A stretch of 64,000 bases of DNA. Source: Chloroflexota bacterium. GTDB taxonomy: Bacteria; Chloroflexota; Dehalococcoidia; Bin125. The position numbers were made by a program, and so were the translations under genes. The notes under the pieces are model-generated. The model saw only the letters and a program-made list of their open reading frames with translations. It made no database searches and was not told the DNA's origin. Shown here in pieces: positions 12,166 to 18,908 of the stretch; within the stretch, counting starts at the first letter, position 1, and each line of letters opens with the position of its first letter. The stretch lies in contig VXQT01000013.1 of the NCBI GenBank assembly GCA_009838915.1, positions 520,194 to 584,193 on the forward strand, written 5' to 3'.

Positions 12166-12357
12166 ATGAAGGTCAAGATCGACACCAGCCTCTGCGAAGG
12201 CCACGCAAAGTGCATGGAAGCCACCGAAGTCGTCTTCGAGGTCCGCGACGACGACCTCTCCCACGTCCTCGTCGACACCGTCCCCGCCGAAGAAGAGGCC
12301 AACGTCCTCCGAGCCGTGCGAACCTGCCCGAGAGCCGCAATCTCGGTGGAGGACTAG
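12166..12357 (+). CDS. [3Fe-4S] ferredoxin of the cytochrome P450-partner type
   Basis: 63 aa with a strong GGGAGG ribosome-binding site. The ligand pattern is CXXHXXC(X)nCP: C10, H13, C16, then C54-P55. In this family the position of the missing fourth Cys is taken by His, giving a 3Fe-4S cluster. Such small acidic ferredoxins deliver electrons to bacterial P450s. Two P450s lie 6.6 kb away, so pairing with them is plausible but inferred. No ferredoxin reductase gene is seen. Confidence 0.88.
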   Translation: MKVKIDTSLCEGHAKCMEATEVVFEVRDDDLSHVLVDTVPAEEEANVLRAVRTCPRAAISVED

Positions 12358-12366
12358 TCGACAGCG

Positions 12367-15300
12367 GTGGCCACGCTTGAATCCACGATCAATGTCGCCC
12401 TGGGAGAAGTGCTAGCAGGTCTGCGACCACACAGTTGGCAGATCTATGCCGAGGAAACCCGAACGCTCCAGGACTCGCTCAAGCGCCCCGACATCTTGAT
12501 TGAGGAGGCCTCGCAGTGGCCCGTTGTGATCGAGGCGGAGCGGACCAATCACCCGAGCGCCGAGCAGGATGCGCTCGAGCGTCTGGGCAAGATCGTCAAT
12601 GAGACCGGCAAGCCGATCGAGAGCGCGATCGCGCTCGTCTATCCGGAGTCGGTGCTTGAACTGAGCGGCCAGGCCCTGCGCGACGAGATTGCAAGTACGG
12701 ACGGTCTGGAGTACGCGCTCTACACGCGCACCGTCGGCGGAGACGAGGAACGCTTGCCCGAGTCGGGCTGGCTCACGGGATCGGCCAAGGACCTGGCCAT
12801 GCTCGCCCACCGCGCGTCGATGCCCGCGCCCCGGATCGAACGCCTCGGCGAGGTGCTGGAGCGCGGCATCGAGACTGCCGCCGGGCGCTTTACCAAGAAA
12901 CACGGATCACACCAGCTCGGCGAACTCGGCCCCGACATCGCCACTCTGCTGGGCCAGGCCGACGACCAGGGCGGCCAGACTCGCCGCATGGCGATGACGG
13001 TGCTGATCAATGCTCTGATCTTCCACGAAGCGCTCGCAGATGCGGATTTCCGGGTCGAACGAGACGAGGCCGCGCAGGAGCCGGAGCTGACCGGCCGTAG
13101 AGTCCACTCCCTCTCACACTTTCGAGATTCCGAGTTCAGCTATCGGCGCGACGCCCTAACCGACGAGTGGAACCTGATCCTCGACGTCAACTACTGGCCC
13201 ATCTTTGCCACCGCCCGCGAGATTTTGCTGAAGCTGCCGATCTTGACGGTCGGCGAAGTGTTGCAGCCGCTCTGGAACGCGGCCAACCAGTTGGTCCAGG
13301 GCGGCGTGACCAAGTCCCACGACCTGACCGGCGTCATCTTCCAGCGACTGATCGCCGACCGCAAGTTCCTCGCCACCTTCTACACTCGGCCTGCCGCCGC
13401 TGCGCTGCTCGCCGGACTCGCCATCCCCGCCGACCGCGCGCCCGGCGGCGCCGAGTGGGGCGACGAGGAGACCATCGCCGCCCTCCAGATCGGCGACTTC
13501 GCCTGCGGCACCGGCACTCTGCTCTCCGCCGCCTACCAACGCATCTCGCTGCTCCACGAGCTCAACGGAGGCGACCCGCGCAAGCTCCACGCCCCCATGA
13601 TGAAGCACGGCCTGGTCGGCCTCGATGTGCTCAACATCGCCGTCCACCTCACCGCCGCCACCCTCGCCGGCGCCCACCCCGACGTCCCCTTCGACGGCGA
13701 GTGCCTCCTCACCAAGCCCTACGGCGGAGAATCAGCCAGAGTCGGCTCGCTAGAACTGCTTGCCGACCACGTCCAAGGTCAGATGATCGAAAATGCAGCC
13801 GCCATTACAGCTGGAGGACGTAGGCCCGAGGACGTCAAGGACCTGGTAAACCGAGTGGGTCACGGCACCTTTGACCTCGCAATCATGAATCCACCGTTCA
13901 CTCGATCTGGCGGCATTGAGACAGTTCGGACGCGTGACAGAAACACTGCCTTCTCCGCTTTCGGGACTGATCGTGAAACCCAACTCAAGATGAGTGCCTC
14001 CGTGAAAGAGCTTGCCAAGTCAGGCAGCGGTCGAGGGTTAGGCCACGGTCATGCAGGTTTAGCATCTCACTTCACAGATCTTGTTCTACGCAAACTAAGG
14101 ACAGATGAAGGTACCCTCGCGCTTGTCCTACCTCTGAGCGCCCTCAGCGGTTCAGCTTGGGAAGGTATACGTGCCGCACTCCTTGCCCGGTGCAAGGACT
14201 TGGTCGTGGTAACGATCGCTAGCACAGGAACGCATGACAGGTCGTTTTCTGCCGACACTGGAATGGCCGAGTGTTTGCTCGTCGCAAACACCTGTGTTTC
14301 CGCAGAGACACGCAATAATGTTCCTTCCGCGACCTTCGTGTTCCTCCATTCCGCACCCTCGTCCGCAACGCAGGCAGCTGAGCTTGCCAAGCAGATTCAC
14401 GCTAGTAAGGCTCTAGTTACCTCGTCTCATGACCAGCCATCCAGCCGGCAGCTTCTACTTGGAAACTCCGCAGTGGGGGTTGCATTGGAGGCTCAGCCTC
14501 CTTCTCAGGGTCCATGGCCCTTTGCAGGAGTGTTTGATTCGGAACTGGCAGTGGCAGCGAACGCGCTTTCCAAGGGGCAACTTCCACAGTTGGGTTCCCC
14601 AGGCTCACCACCGATCTCGATTCCTATGGGCACTGTCCGAGACATTGCGAGTGTTGGCCCACATCACATGGACATTTGGGGAGACAAGAGAGACGGCAGC
14701 CCCCAAGGACCGTTCGTGATCAGCAAGACACAACCCGGGAAGCGATCCACGTATCCCGCGCTGTGGGCACACGATGCCAAGGTCGAACGTCGACTCATTT
14801 TGCGAGAAGACAGTGAAGGGACCATCAAGACATGGAAGCCAAATCAGGAACGGGTCAATAGGAAGGCTGCTTCAATCTGGGCTACGGCAACAAGAGCTCA
14901 CTATTGTGTCGACCTACAGTTCAACTCTCAATCGATCATCGTTGCCGCGACTGATCGCAAATGCATCGGCGGTCGCGCATGGCCGTCCGTGATTCTCGAC
15001 AATCTCAAGCACGAATGCGTGTTCTCTCTCTGGTGCAACTCGACGCTTGGCTTGCTGCTGCACTGGTGGGTCAGCAACAAGACACAAGCAGGCCGCGGCA
15101 CCACCAGCGTCACCGGCATCCCCAATATCCCAACCCTAGACACACGCGCCCTCACCGACGAACAGCACGCAGAGGCCAAGCGCCAGTTCGAGTTCCTCCG
15201 CGACGAGCGCTTCCTCCCCTTCGACCAGATCGACGAGGACCCCGCCCGAGCCAAACTCGACCGCGCCATCCTCGTCGACGTCCTCGGCCTACCGGAGTCC

Positions 15301-15438
15301 CTCGTCGAGCCCGGTGGCGCCATCGACCTCATCCGCCGCAAACTCGCCCGGGAACCCCAGATCCACGGCGGCAAGAAATCCCGCGTCGTCTTCACCGACG
15401 GCGGCGAGAAATCCGTCCGACGCCACGACCGCGACTAG
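12367..15438 (+). CDS. Putative type IIG-like restriction-modification protein: nuclease-like N-terminus fused to N6-adenine DNA methyltransferase
   Basis: 1023 aa, GTG start 9 bp after the ferredoxin stop. Residues 41-58 (PDILIEEASQWPVVIEAE) fit a PD-(D/E)XK core, with the final Lys replaced by Glu. A helical region follows, then the gamma-class methyltransferase: motif I DFACGTGTLL near residue 376 and motif IV NPPF at 508. The C-terminal part should hold target recognition. It has no separate S or R subunit nearby, so a single-chain enzyme is the simplest reading; an orphan methylase with a dead nuclease is the alternative. GC falls sharply from about 13,760 to 15,090 and then recovers, suggesting exchange of the specificity part. 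Confidence 0.7.
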   Translation: MATLESTINVALGEVLAGLRPHSWQIYAEETRTLQDSLKRPDILIEEASQWPVVIEAERTNHPSAEQDALERLGKIVNETGKPIESAIALVYPESVLELSGQALRDEIASTDGLEYALYTRTVGGDEERLPESGWLTGSAKDLAMLAHRASMPAPRIERLGEVLERGIETAAGRFTKKHGSHQLGELGPDIATLLGQADDQGGQTRRMAMTVLINALIFHEALADADFRVERDEAAQEPELTGRRVHSLSHFRDSEFSYRRDALTDEWNLILDVNYWPIFATAREILLKLPILTVGEVLQPLWNAANQLVQGGVTKSHDLTGVIFQRLIADRKFLATFYTRPAAAALLAGLAIPADRAPGGAEWGDEETIAALQIGDFACGTGTLLSAAYQRISLLHELNGGDPRKLHAPMMKHGLVGLDVLNIAVHLTAATLAGAHPDVPFDGECLLTKPYGGESARVGSLELLADHVQGQMIENAAAITAGGRRPEDVKDLVNRVGHGTFDLAIMNPPFTRSGGIETVRTRDRNTAFSAFGTDRETQLKMSASVKELAKSGSGRGLGHGHAGLASHFTDLVLRKLRTDEGTLALVLPLSALSGSAWEGIRAALLARCKDLVVVTIASTGTHDRSFSADTGMAECLLVANTCVSAETRNNVPSATFVFLHSAPSSATQAAELAKQIHASKALVTSSHDQPSSRQLLLGNSAVGVALEAQPPSQGPWPFAGVFDSELAVAANALSKGQLPQLGSPGSPPISIPMGTVRDIASVGPHHMDIWGDKRDGSPQGPFVISKTQPGKRSTYPALWAHDAKVERRLILREDSEGTIKTWKPNQERVNRKAASIWATATRAHYCVDLQFNSQSIIVAATDRKCIGGRAWPSVILDNLKHECVFSLWCNSTLGLLLHWWVSNKTQAGRGTTSVTGIPNIPTLDTRALTDEQHAEAKRQFEFLRDERFLPFDQIDEDPARAKLDRAILVDVLGLPESLVEPGGAIDLIRRKLAREPQIHGGKKSRVVFTDGGEKSVRRHDRD

Positions 15439-15479
15439 ACCGCTCGGTTCCCCACCCTGTCCAGTTCCCGATACCATCA

Positions 15480-15491
15480 GAACATATGTGC
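15480..15491. promoter_or_regulatory. Candidate LexA-like operator
   Basis: GAACATATGTGC carries a perfect ACATATGT core and differs by one base from a GAAC-N4-GTTC box, the Gram-positive type SOS operator. It sits 24 bp before the start of the small ORF at 15515. A single weak match could be chance. Confidence 0.25.
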
Positions 15492-15514
15492 CTGTACAGA
15501 AAGGAGCGAACCCC

Positions 15515-15838
15515 ATGCCTAACGCCTTCCACTACGCCAACACCCTCCACCGAATCGCCCGGCTCGCCGGCGGCGCCCATCCCCCGCACGTCCGCCTGCG
15601 CGCGGCCCTGGTCCTCGTCGACGAGCTTTCGCCGAACAGCCCTCGACGCGATGTCGTCAGCCGCATGCTCCTAGAGGCCAACCCATTCGAACTCGCCCGC
15701 CACAAGCTCCGCGACCTCTACGACCGCGCCGACTCCGACTCTCCCCCCGCCTCAAGCGGGGGGAGATGTCACGTAGTGACAGAGGGGGGCACCCCGGACG
15801 AGGACCGACTGCTCGGAGAAGACGACGACCCTTGGTAA
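15515..15838 (+). CDS. Small protein of unknown function with repeat-derived C-terminus
   Basis: 107 aa from the ATG at 15515, which has an AAAGGAG ribosome-binding site. The track's 174-aa version starts inside the upstream methyltransferase. The first 75 or so residues are helical and charged (MPNAFHYANTLHRIARLAGG..., then RLRAALVLVDEL). I recognise no family. Residues from about 76 to 95 (SPPASSGGRCHVVTEGG) are encoded by a dispersed palindromic repeat, so the original C-terminus was probably altered by insertion. It follows the methyltransferase by 76 bp and may belong to the same accessory patch. Confidence 0.5.
   Translation: MPNAFHYANTLHRIARLAGGAHPPHVRLRAALVLVDELSPNSPRRDVVSRMLLEANPFELARHKLRDLYDRADSDSPPASSGGRCHVVTEGGTPDEDRLLGEDDDPW
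15739..15793 (-). repeat. Dispersed two-hairpin palindromic repeat, copy A (inverted, inside a coding frame)
   Basis: CTCCCCCCGC pairs with GCGGGGGGAG around a 5-nt loop, followed by TGTCAC-GTA-GTGACA. This is the reverse orientation of the four copies near 54.7-58.8 kb. The small stem differs in sequence from the other copies but pairs perfectly. It is read through in frame by the small ORF. Confidence 0.85.
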
Positions 15839-15908
15839 TCACCCCCACCCAACCCTGCGCGTTTTTTTTTCTCACAGGGAGTCAGCCGACCCAGGCCGCG
15901 CCATGCCC

Positions 15909-18908
15909 TCAGCCCAGGGCGCTCTTGCCAGCGCCCGCCTGCCGAACCGTGACCACCACCTTGACCGGCGCGCCCTCGGTCACACGCACTCGCCAGGCCC
16001 AGACGTCGGAGTCGGCGAAGGAGTAGATGTCTCGGCGGGGGACGAGGCGCTTGCCTTCGTCGGTCAGGACGCGGACCGTGAAGTTTTCGAACTCATGCTC
16101 GCCCGTGTTTCTGAGCTTGAAGTAGTGGGTCGAGAACCAGCGCGTCTGCTCCAGCGTCGAGAGTCCGGGGCAGTCGTCGCGCACGAAGCCCGTGACCTGC
16201 AGCAGCTCGACTCCTTCAGGCGCGTCCAACTCCCATTCGGCGGTCGACTCGGGCGATGTCGGCCGCCGCGGTTCGATGCAGATCGCCTCGGGCGTCCGGT
16301 CGTCGCGGTACTCGACGATGAATATCTTGTCGCCGAAGTCGCAGGTGTCGGGCCTGGCGCCGTCGCGCTCGTAGACGCGCCAGACATCCGGGTTGTCAAC
16401 GCTCGACACGTACACGGCATAGCGCCCGTGATAGCGCTCAGAGGGGTGAACGTTGCAGATACGTCCCGAGAACTGAGGCTGGATCGGACCGTCGTAGAGC
16501 GGCCGGGAGTATGCAGAAGCCGTGCCGTGCGCCGGCGGTCCGTCGTTCTGACTGCGAGGACGTTCAGCTCGCTCGCGCATCTCCGTCCACGAAGCGCGCA
16601 CCGTCTCCGCCCGCAACAGGTCGTCGCCGCCGAGCGAGACGCCGAGCAATGAGCCGTCGCACAGGTCGATGAGCGGCGACCCGTGCCGCCCGTTGCCGGT
16701 CGGCTCGACCCTGAGCACGCGTTCGGACATATCGGTCACGCTGAGCACGCTGATCAGGTAGCGACCGGCATTGCCGGCGGGATAGGTAAGCATGTGGACA
16801 TAGCTGTCAATCAGCGCGTCGCTGGTCAAGCCGAACCGCGCAGGCGCCCCGAGCTCGATCTGCTGCTCGGCATCGAACAGCTCGACCAGCGCCAGGTCGT
16901 TTCGCGGGTCGCTCGCGACCCGTACGACCGGCAGGGACAGCTCGCCGCGCGAGACCACGCCCCAGGGCGCGCCGTCGGGTACGCGGGCGAGGTTGACCAG
17001 GAACTGCCGATTGCCGACGTGCACCGCCGTCGCGGTCCCGGCCAGGGACTTGAACTGCCAGGCGTAGAGCTGATGCGGATCCTGGTACTGACAGGTCAGC
17101 GCCGACCTCGGCGCATGCGCGGCAATCGCCGTCAACTCAGACGGCAGACTCGCAGACCACGAGATTGGCGCAGTTTCTCGCCAACGACCCGAGTCGACGG
17201 CGGGCCCGAGCCATCCGCCGTCCGGTCCGCAGTGGATCACGCCTTCGTCGAGCAGGCACACCCGAATCGCACCAGACTCAGAGTCGATCCGGGCCGCGAT
17301 CGCGACAGAGACCTCAGCGGATCCGAACTCGCTGGGCGCGATCCGTTCCTGGTCGAGTTCCAGCGGCACGAACCAGCGCTCGCCACCGGCGGCGAGACGA
17401 ATCGCGATCGGCATGAACCCGGCGTGAACTGACCAATCCTGCCAGAACGTCGCCACGGGTGAGTCAGCGGCCAGGGTCGTGCCTGAATAGGACTTCCTCG
17501 ACCAGGCTCCGACCAGTTGCGAGCCGTCTGCACCGATCAACGTCGCGCCGAGATCGACGCCGGGGGTCTGCGGAGTCGCGAAGTCAACCCGCAGCGAGTA
17601 CTCGTTCACTTCGGGGCACTCGGGAGCAGGATCGCGCAGCGTGAGCCGCAGCGAGCCAAGCGCCCGAACTGATTGGTGCAGCACGCGCGGTGCAGCGCCA
17701 ACGGCGCACTCTTCGATCGATGGTGTCTCAGCCGCGATCGCTTTCAGCGCGGCCACATAGGTGAATCCGTTGTCGAAGTCGTCGGGACCGGATGCTCCGC
17801 AGACGCCGATTTGTCGCCAGCCGGCGCGTTCCAGGTCGGCGCGGACCTCGGCCTCATCGCCGACTGCGGACAGGGCGATCCACCAGTCTGCATCCAGTTC
17901 CGAGCAATCGACATCCTGCGGCGGTTCGGGTCCGTAGTGCCAGATCAAGCGCACGGCGGCTCGCAGTGCCGGAGGCACGGAGGCCGGCGTCAGCGGCCAG
18001 CGCGGCCAGGAGTCATTCAATCGCTGCAGCGACCGCATCAGGGCCCCGCCGGAGTAGGTATAGGACCAGGATGAGCCGCCCGCCCATAGCACGCCGATCA
18101 CGGCGCCGCAGGCGTCGAACACCGGTCCTCCGCTGTTCCCACCTCGAACCACCGCCGAAGTCTGGATGTTGTCGTCCCAGACCCGGCTCACTACGCCGCC
18201 GCCGGAAATGGTCAACGCCTCGCCGCCGGGATAGCCGATCAGGTAGATCGGTTCGCCAACGTCGTCCGCGGTCGGGGCGCGCATCCGCAGCGCGGGCACG
18301 TCCTGCACCAGATCTGGCGAGTCGACCTCGAGCAGCGCCAGGTCAAAGTCGGGATCGACGCCGATCACCGCCGCGCCGATGGTTCGCTGGCCATGAATCA
18401 GCGAAACAAACGGCGGCCGACGTTCGATCACGTGATAGGCAGTAACGAATCGACCGTTGCCCACATGAAAAGCCGTGCCAAAGGTCCCCGATGTCTCGAC
18501 TTTCCAGGTTGCCGCGAGCATTCGCTCGAAGTCGGGGGCGCAGGAACCCGACCCCTCGTCGGGAGTGGCTGTAGGAGAGGCATTGTCGGCGACGTATTGG
18601 ATCGCCCCAACATCAATGGGCGCGGTCCAGGAGACCTCGCTGCTGGCCACCCATGCATCGCGAGGCGCGCGCTCGATGTTCAGGTAACGAGCCCTCGGGC
18701 ATGTGGTCTGTCCGTCGTCGGTGCGCAGACAGAACTCCAGCACGCCGTTCTCGTTTAGACGAGTGACGATTTGTCCGCTGAAGTCATAGCGAGGCTCGGG
18801 CGGTTCAGGACCCTGGGCGAGGCCGATGCCTGCGATCAGACAAGCGACTCCAGCCAGCGCCAGGATGGAGACAAGGAATTGCCGACCGCGCCGGCGGAGG
18901 AGATACAT
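15909..18908 (-). CDS. Exported tandem trypsin-like serine protease, second domain degenerate
   Basis: 999 aa. An arginine-rich N-terminus and hydrophobic segment (about 11-31) form a signal anchor. The first protease-like domain has a full triad: H159 in TAYHVIE, D189 in DFDLALLEV and S259 in GGNSGGPVF. A second, similarly arranged domain keeps the Asp (DPRNDLALVE), but its His region reads NLARVPDG and its Ser region GRHGSPLID, so the triad is broken. A third beta-rich part closes the protein. It probably acts outside the membrane; the substrate is unknown. It is convergent with the small ORF and lies just downstream of the two P450s on the same strand. Confidence 0.75.
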   Translation of the reverse strand: MYLLRRRGRQFLVSILALAGVACLIAGIGLAQGPEPPEPRYDFSGQIVTRLNENGVLEFCLRTDDGQTTCPRARYLNIERAPRDAWVASSEVSWTAPIDVGAIQYVADNASPTATPDEGSGSCAPDFERMLAATWKVETSGTFGTAFHVGNGRFVTAYHVIERRPPFVSLIHGQRTIGAAVIGVDPDFDLALLEVDSPDLVQDVPALRMRAPTADDVGEPIYLIGYPGGEALTISGGGVVSRVWDDNIQTSAVVRGGNSGGPVFDACGAVIGVLWAGGSSWSYTYSGGALMRSLQRLNDSWPRWPLTPASVPPALRAAVRLIWHYGPEPPQDVDCSELDADWWIALSAVGDEAEVRADLERAGWRQIGVCGASGPDDFDNGFTYVAALKAIAAETPSIEECAVGAAPRVLHQSVRALGSLRLTLRDPAPECPEVNEYSLRVDFATPQTPGVDLGATLIGADGSQLVGAWSRKSYSGTTLAADSPVATFWQDWSVHAGFMPIAIRLAAGGERWFVPLELDQERIAPSEFGSAEVSVAIAARIDSESGAIRVCLLDEGVIHCGPDGGWLGPAVDSGRWRETAPISWSASLPSELTAIAAHAPRSALTCQYQDPHQLYAWQFKSLAGTATAVHVGNRQFLVNLARVPDGAPWGVVSRGELSLPVVRVASDPRNDLALVELFDAEQQIELGAPARFGLTSDALIDSYVHMLTYPAGNAGRYLISVLSVTDMSERVLRVEPTGNGRHGSPLIDLCDGSLLGVSLGGDDLLRAETVRASWTEMRERAERPRSQNDGPPAHGTASAYSRPLYDGPIQPQFSGRICNVHPSERYHGRYAVYVSSVDNPDVWRVYERDGARPDTCDFGDKIFIVEYRDDRTPEAICIEPRRPTSPESTAEWELDAPEGVELLQVTGFVRDDCPGLSTLEQTRWFSTHYFKLRNTGEHEFENFTVRVLTDEGKRLVPRRDIYSFADSDVWAWRVRVTEGAPVKVVVTVRQAGAGKSALG

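Follow-up and report, generated by a model that had tools for sequence, protein, structure and literature searches.

A predicted type IIG-like single-chain restriction-modification enzyme with an exchangeable third catalytic residue in a Dehalococcoidia genome

Introduction

The definition of type IIG restriction-modification (RM) enzymes, including the single chain that stands without a companion gene, is set out in PMC3874165. MmeI is built, in order, of a nuclease (residues 1-155), a helical spacer, a gamma-class methyltransferase (MTase; 301-620), a target recognition domain (TRD; 621-825) and a C-terminal helical bundle (PMC4833311), and for BpuSI a nuclease of the FokI kind and two companion MTases are described (PMC3874165). 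Exceptions at the third catalytic residue of the PD-(D/E)XK nucleases have been reported, namely glutamate in BamHI, glutamine in BglII and NotI, and asparagine in MspI (PMC4081073).

Here we describe a gene in a 2.9-Mb assembly (GCA_009838915.1) whose named close relatives are metagenome-assembled genomes (MAGs) of Dehalococcoidia (Chloroflexota). The window is the whole stretch of DNA analysed, 64,000 nucleotides of contig VXQT01000013.1. Judged by its sequence, the encoded protein belongs to an unnamed family of type IIG-like single-chain RM enzymes whose third catalytic residue is exchangeable. Motifs and structure models together make it likely that this is an MmeI-like stand-alone enzyme, which would mark its own DNA and cut unmarked foreign DNA.

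Results and discussion

Gene and domain organization

The gene, its parts and the upstream neighbour are as follows.

12166-12357, + strand: ferredoxin-like ORF of 63 aa (ferredoxin by eye), the native upstream neighbour and left edge of a variable slot; flank homology among sister genomes ends at its stop codon
12367-15438, + strand: type IIG-like single-chain RM gene, 1,023 aa, GTG start
12367-12816, + strand: nuclease domain (AlphaFold2 model, pLDDT 91; top Foldseek match 3ijm, a restriction-endonuclease-like fold, probability 0.97, E 0.009)
12817-13371, + strand: helical spacer, about residues 151-335 (DSSP of the full-length model)
13372-14286, + strand: gamma-class N6-adenine MTase domain, about residues 336-640, with YTRP at 339, DFACGTGTLL at 377 and NPPF at 508 (invariant motif columns; profile matches to BrxX, DrdV, BsaXI and M.TaqI)
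14287-14976, + strand: putative TRD, about residues 641-870, hypervariable (15-50% identity to the closest homologues until about 770, about 70% by 850; flanks more conserved)
14977-15435, + strand: conserved C-terminal helical part ending in a helix and a beta hairpin (identity profile and full-length model)

The GTG start lies 9 nt past the stop codon of the ferredoxin-like ORF, and this choice of start agrees with relatives that open MATHEHTIN. Pfam and NCBIfam scans returned no family model for the window protein, phmmer of the single protein against the PDB gave no match, and PADLOC gave only a weak type II MTase match.

The gamma-class MTase with NPPF at 508 recognized in the first-pass annotation was borne out: NPPF occupies 508-511, with N508-P509-P510 present in all 62 aligned rows, motif I (DFACGTGTLL) lies at 377-386 and a motif X-like YTRP at 339-342. 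The DFACGTGTLL and NPPF columns are invariant or nearly so in METHYLTRANSFERASE. The full-length model (pLDDT 88.5, pTM 0.92) has as its best PDB match the type IIG enzyme BpuSI (E 3.7e-16), a fit that is global and of poor rmsd, followed by BrxX/PglX, CamA and the type IIG-like DrdV.

In most of the closest homologues, residues 301-420 are 90-100% identical to the window protein; identity drops to 15-50% across a large part of 520-770, and beyond 880 it recovers to 70-98%. A hypervariable segment between conserved ones is what would be expected of a TRD if specificity diversifies, and we infer that 641-870 is a built-in TRD. The sister genome G010 holds three full-length copies (L007, L024, L025). 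Two of these, L007 and L025, have the 431-870 module in common (dN 0.04-0.07) and divergent nucleases (dN 0.24), suggesting that specificity modules move between backbones. Two features of a type IIG enzyme are found in one chain, namely an N-terminal nuclease domain with a gamma-class MTase (from the motifs, the AlphaFold2 models and the BpuSI match) and the hypervariable 641-870 as a putative internal recognition segment, with no S gene linked.

A putative acidic PD-(D/E)XK site

The residues of the putative active site are as follows.

12379-12381, + strand: E5, conserved acidic residue of the first helix (59 of 62 rows)
12490-12492, + strand: D42, Asp of the PD motif and expected metal ligand (61 of 62 rows)
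12532-12540, + strand: E56-A57-E58, conserved Glu and altered third residue, Glu for Lys (E56 in 60 of 62 rows; residue 58 is E in 40 and K in 21)
12568-12570, + strand: D68, in the next helix (acidic in all ExE members, Gln in 45 of 49 ExK members)

A PD-x13-ExE core had been read from the sequence, and the motif stands as P41-D42, E56 and E58 with exactly 13 residues from D42 to E56. Comparison of the N-terminus with PD-(D/E)XK structures had been proposed as a check, with an unrelated fold as the outcome that would count against a nuclease; residues 1-150 are instead predicted to take up a PD-(D/E)XK fold (AlphaFold2, pLDDT 91). The model comprises helices 5-19 and 62-72 and strands 25-28, 43-46, 53-58 and 86-91, placing D42 just before strand 43-46 and E56 inside strand 53-58. 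The leading Foldseek matches belong to this superfamily (3ijm, R2 endonuclease, Bax1, EcoT38I, a Hjc-type resolvase and VRR_NUC), at scores that speak for the superfamily level only (best E 0.009, TM 0.34-0.44), and a viral fold search with the domain likewise gave superfamily-level matches only.

The D-x13-E spacing is kept in 54 of the 62 aligned rows, and D42, E56 and either E or K at 58 occur together in 60 of them; conservation of D42, E56 and their spacing across the alignment indicates that the core is not a chance arrangement. Apart from one nuclease-dead paralogue in the same genome, described below, all 60 family members that could be aligned retain D42 and E56. The conserved set also takes in E5 and D68. 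Among near relatives, pairs with measurable dS give a nuclease-domain dN/dS of about 0.06-0.35. The lysine usual at the third position is replaced by E58 in the window protein; as lysine is usual at this position and not obligatory (PMC4081073), E58 is compatible with membership of the superfamily.

Residues 58 and 68 switch together

Residue 58 covaries with residue 68. Residue 68 is D or E in 39 of 39 ExE rows of the discovery alignment and Q in 21 of 21 ExK rows. Sequences fetched later added five ExE members, all with D68, and 27 ExK or DxK members, 23 of them with Q68, the exceptions being two DxK sequences and two distant ones. With sequences outside the discovery set included, E58 is paired with D/E68 in 45 of 45 cases and K58 with Q68 in 45 of 49, an association that shared ancestry inflates. 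A tree of the MTase, TRD and C-terminal columns requires three E/K changes and rejects a single K clade (p-AU 3.6e-7), and a nuclease-domain tree built without residues 57, 58 and 66-69 also requires three changes and rejects a single K clade (p-AU 0.006). Neither a single origin of the K form nor domain swapping as the sole cause of the E/K pattern was retained, since the nuclease tree still needs three changes once the key columns are removed. Glutamate and lysine at 58 appear on this phylogenetic evidence to have been switched together with residue 68 in at least three independent events, three concordant switches being too few for a sign test (p 0.25).

The near-perfect 58/68 association and the strict conservation of the remaining site favour an alternative working site over decay, and the window nuclease seems to be a functional variant, not a degenerate one. 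A paralogue in the same genome (G000:C8, L003:1483-5016) bears on the opposite reading, in which the N-terminal fold would be only structural or DNA-binding and the protein an orphan m6A methyltransferase for epigenetic marking. Its open frame of 1,177 aa has intact MTase motifs, while A, G and A replace E5, D42 and E56, making it a natural nuclease-dead member and indicating that disarmed forms exist; the non-lysine third residue of the window protein and the lack of a partner nuclease gene nearby point the same way. We nonetheless consider a disarmed nuclease unlikely for the window gene. ExE members keep E5, D42 and E56, always with D/E68, and dN/dS of the domain is low, whereas decay would neither preserve catalytic residues nor alter a pair of positions jointly on three or more occasions; moreover, BamHI cleaves with glutamate at its third position (PMC4081073). 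Of the two options left undecided by the first-pass annotation, a type IIG-like enzyme whose third catalytic residue is altered draws support from the predicted fold, the match to BpuSI, a domain order like that of MmeI, conservation of E5, D42 and E56, the low dN/dS and the 58/68 switch. The other, a methylase carrying a disarmed nuclease, is unlikely for the window gene but does apply to the paralogue.

Within one family, then, three or more exchanges between lysine and glutamate, in one direction or the other, appear to have taken place at the PD-(D/E)XK site, each with a change of one partner residue. The role of the third residue and how far it can be replaced is a long-standing question, which the 58/68 pairing makes directly testable.

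A widespread family without partner genes

One scan found 61 related loci in MAGs of Chloroflexota, Poribacteria, acidobacterial, Bacteroidota and proteobacterial lineages and in a few isolates. A member on a Nitrosospira plasmid (NZ_AP024517.1:38443-41388; 39% identity over 98% of the query) lies where no gene is listed. Poribacteria carry several copies per genome, with a maximum of eleven near-full-length copies in one, ten of them without internal stops. Complete family genes in tandem pairs were seen at L045, L048 and G297:C1:284600-291200; in the L048 pair the N-terminal 80 residues are identical and the middle differs. The family is thus widespread in Chloroflexota, Poribacteria and other phyla, yet its enzymes have gone unnamed for want of a Pfam or NCBIfam model.

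The observation that no S or R gene lies nearby was correct for the scanned neighbours, a mix of housekeeping genes with P450 and trypsin-like ones, namely tRNA synthetases, ScpA, RibF, a beta-lactamase-fold protein, a luciferase-like monooxygenase, a trypsin-like protein, P450s and PriA; helicase, BREX and MTase genes are absent among them. Type I RM was rejected, as no separate S or helicase-containing R subunit genes are linked, and type ISP likewise, the spacer consisting of about 185 helical residues with no helicase match between nuclease and MTase. A conserved operon was also rejected: except among close kin, the 61 loci share no conserved neighbour gene and their neighbours are of no common family. 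With no neighbour common to the 61 loci, the RM unit appears to be the single gene.

The MTase resembles BrxX/PglX by profile and by fold. This could fit an MTase and nuclease directed against modified phage DNA, or a component of a BREX/PglX-like or two-protein system whose partner is unlinked, in place of a self-contained type IIG enzyme. Both versions seem very improbable, given that no BREX, DISARM or other partner gene recurs at the 61 loci and that BpuSI is the better full-length match; membership of BREX and of DISARM was rejected on the lack of partner genes among the scanned neighbours and at these loci. PglX is not known to have an N-terminal nuclease of the kind found in the window protein.

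The type IIG-like enzyme is envisaged to work as one chain of PD-(D/E)XK-fold nuclease, helical spacer, gamma N6-adenine MTase, one TRD and C-terminal helical part. The TRD would read a short asymmetric site. On host DNA the MTase would flip and methylate one adenine on one strand, as NPPF and the fold suggest, and on unmodified foreign DNA the nuclease domains of neighbouring molecules would pair and cut at a fixed distance, by analogy with BpuSI and MmeI. The nuclease site would be acidic, formed by E5, D42, E56, E58 and, on the following helix, D68, much like the D/E/E of BamHI, and other family members would use a D/E/K plus Q site instead. Because cutting and marking would both rely on one TRD, a change in it would alter both together, leaving specificity free to diversify with no need of a partner gene; with the TRD shared by both activities, the family might also yield new specificities.

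A variable slot and a recurrent 3' tail

Two further features concern the surroundings and the end of the gene.

15909-18908, - strand: trypsin-like protein, the native downstream neighbour and right edge of the slot
15313-15438, + strand: 3' tail, residues 983-1023 and stop, recurring without the gene body beside other defence genes in sister species

The trypsin-like protein has 999 aa, with the trypsin-like domain N-terminal and about 700 residues without a Pfam match. Between it and the ferredoxin-like ORF, at 12358-15908 of the window and in the same slot of L168-L180, gene content varies across the genus. The window has the type IIG-like enzyme here, G002 an HNH_2 gene together with a DUF1828 pair, G014 an XcyI-like endonuclease, and G010 an N6_N4 MTase with a BglII-type endonuclease, homologous ORFs being present in G013; G001, G004 and G009 have a second long trypsin-like gene, and the slot of G005 is almost empty, with only a scrap of the 5' end of the window gene. 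By their predicted products, other restriction or defence genes occupy the slot in sister species.

The last 105-125 bp or so of the gene are found without its body at the window slot and at least two other loci of the genus (L082, L083, L084, L085, L086, L087, L088, L107). Such tails lie directly 3' of an HNH_2 endonuclease, a DUF1828/PDC-M24B pair, an XcyI-like restriction enzyme and PsyrTA, and an ApeA-like HEPN gene adjoins one in divergent orientation. The left edges of eight of the nine body-less tails fall within about 17-20 bp. In Poribacteria the tail occurs 0.9 kb downstream of a complete gene at one locus (L186:1-2107) and 2.9 kb downstream at another (L187:168-6233), there with an identical C-terminal peptide and with genes of 212 and 597 aa, lacking Pfam or PADLOC matches, in between. 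An attC-like hairpin for the tail (by eye) was rejected, as substitutions break it and the differences look like those of coding sequence. Nor is duplication of the 3' end of the gene universal: the loci compared include one with a lone 3' copy nearby, two with tandem full genes and one with a weak N-terminal match.

We tentatively suggest, while regarding it as rather doubtful, that the 3' end of the gene is a recurrent junction, with the tail as a homology or attachment module through which one defence gene is swapped for another. For mobile RM genes, long duplication of the target has been described (Nobusato 2000, as referred to in PMC3031569), and by analogy the tails may be a case of it; the plain alternative is decay from ancestral copies and inheritance. 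The slot and the tails bear on how defence genes move.

Comparison with known systems

In domain order, in similar domain sizes and in having no companion MTase among its scanned neighbours, the window gene resembles MmeI and the type IIL enzymes, while MmeI itself gave no sequence-profile match in the PDB and is absent from the 50 best fold matches of the full-length model. RM.BpuSI (type IIG, PDB 3s1s) likewise fuses an N-terminal nuclease to a gamma-MTase and TRD, at 11% identity to the window protein, but its accompanying MTases have no counterparts linked to the window gene. BrxX/PglX are the best sequence-profile matches (motif I region, E 4e-8 to 2e-7); PglX, however, belongs to a multi-gene BREX locus, whereas the window locus is without BREX genes. 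The 'type IIG restriction modification enzyme' of Halorubrum viruses (HRTV-10, HSTV-4 and kin) has 24% identity over residues 206-682, covering spacer and MTase, but its nuclease and TRD have no match to the window protein. The closest parallel at the active site is BamHI, which like the window protein has the acidic third residue of an ExE at its PD-(D/E)XK site (PMC4081073). BamHI is a stand-alone type IIP enzyme, whereas the ExE described here belongs to a fused RM protein, in a family where ExK occurs as its alternative.
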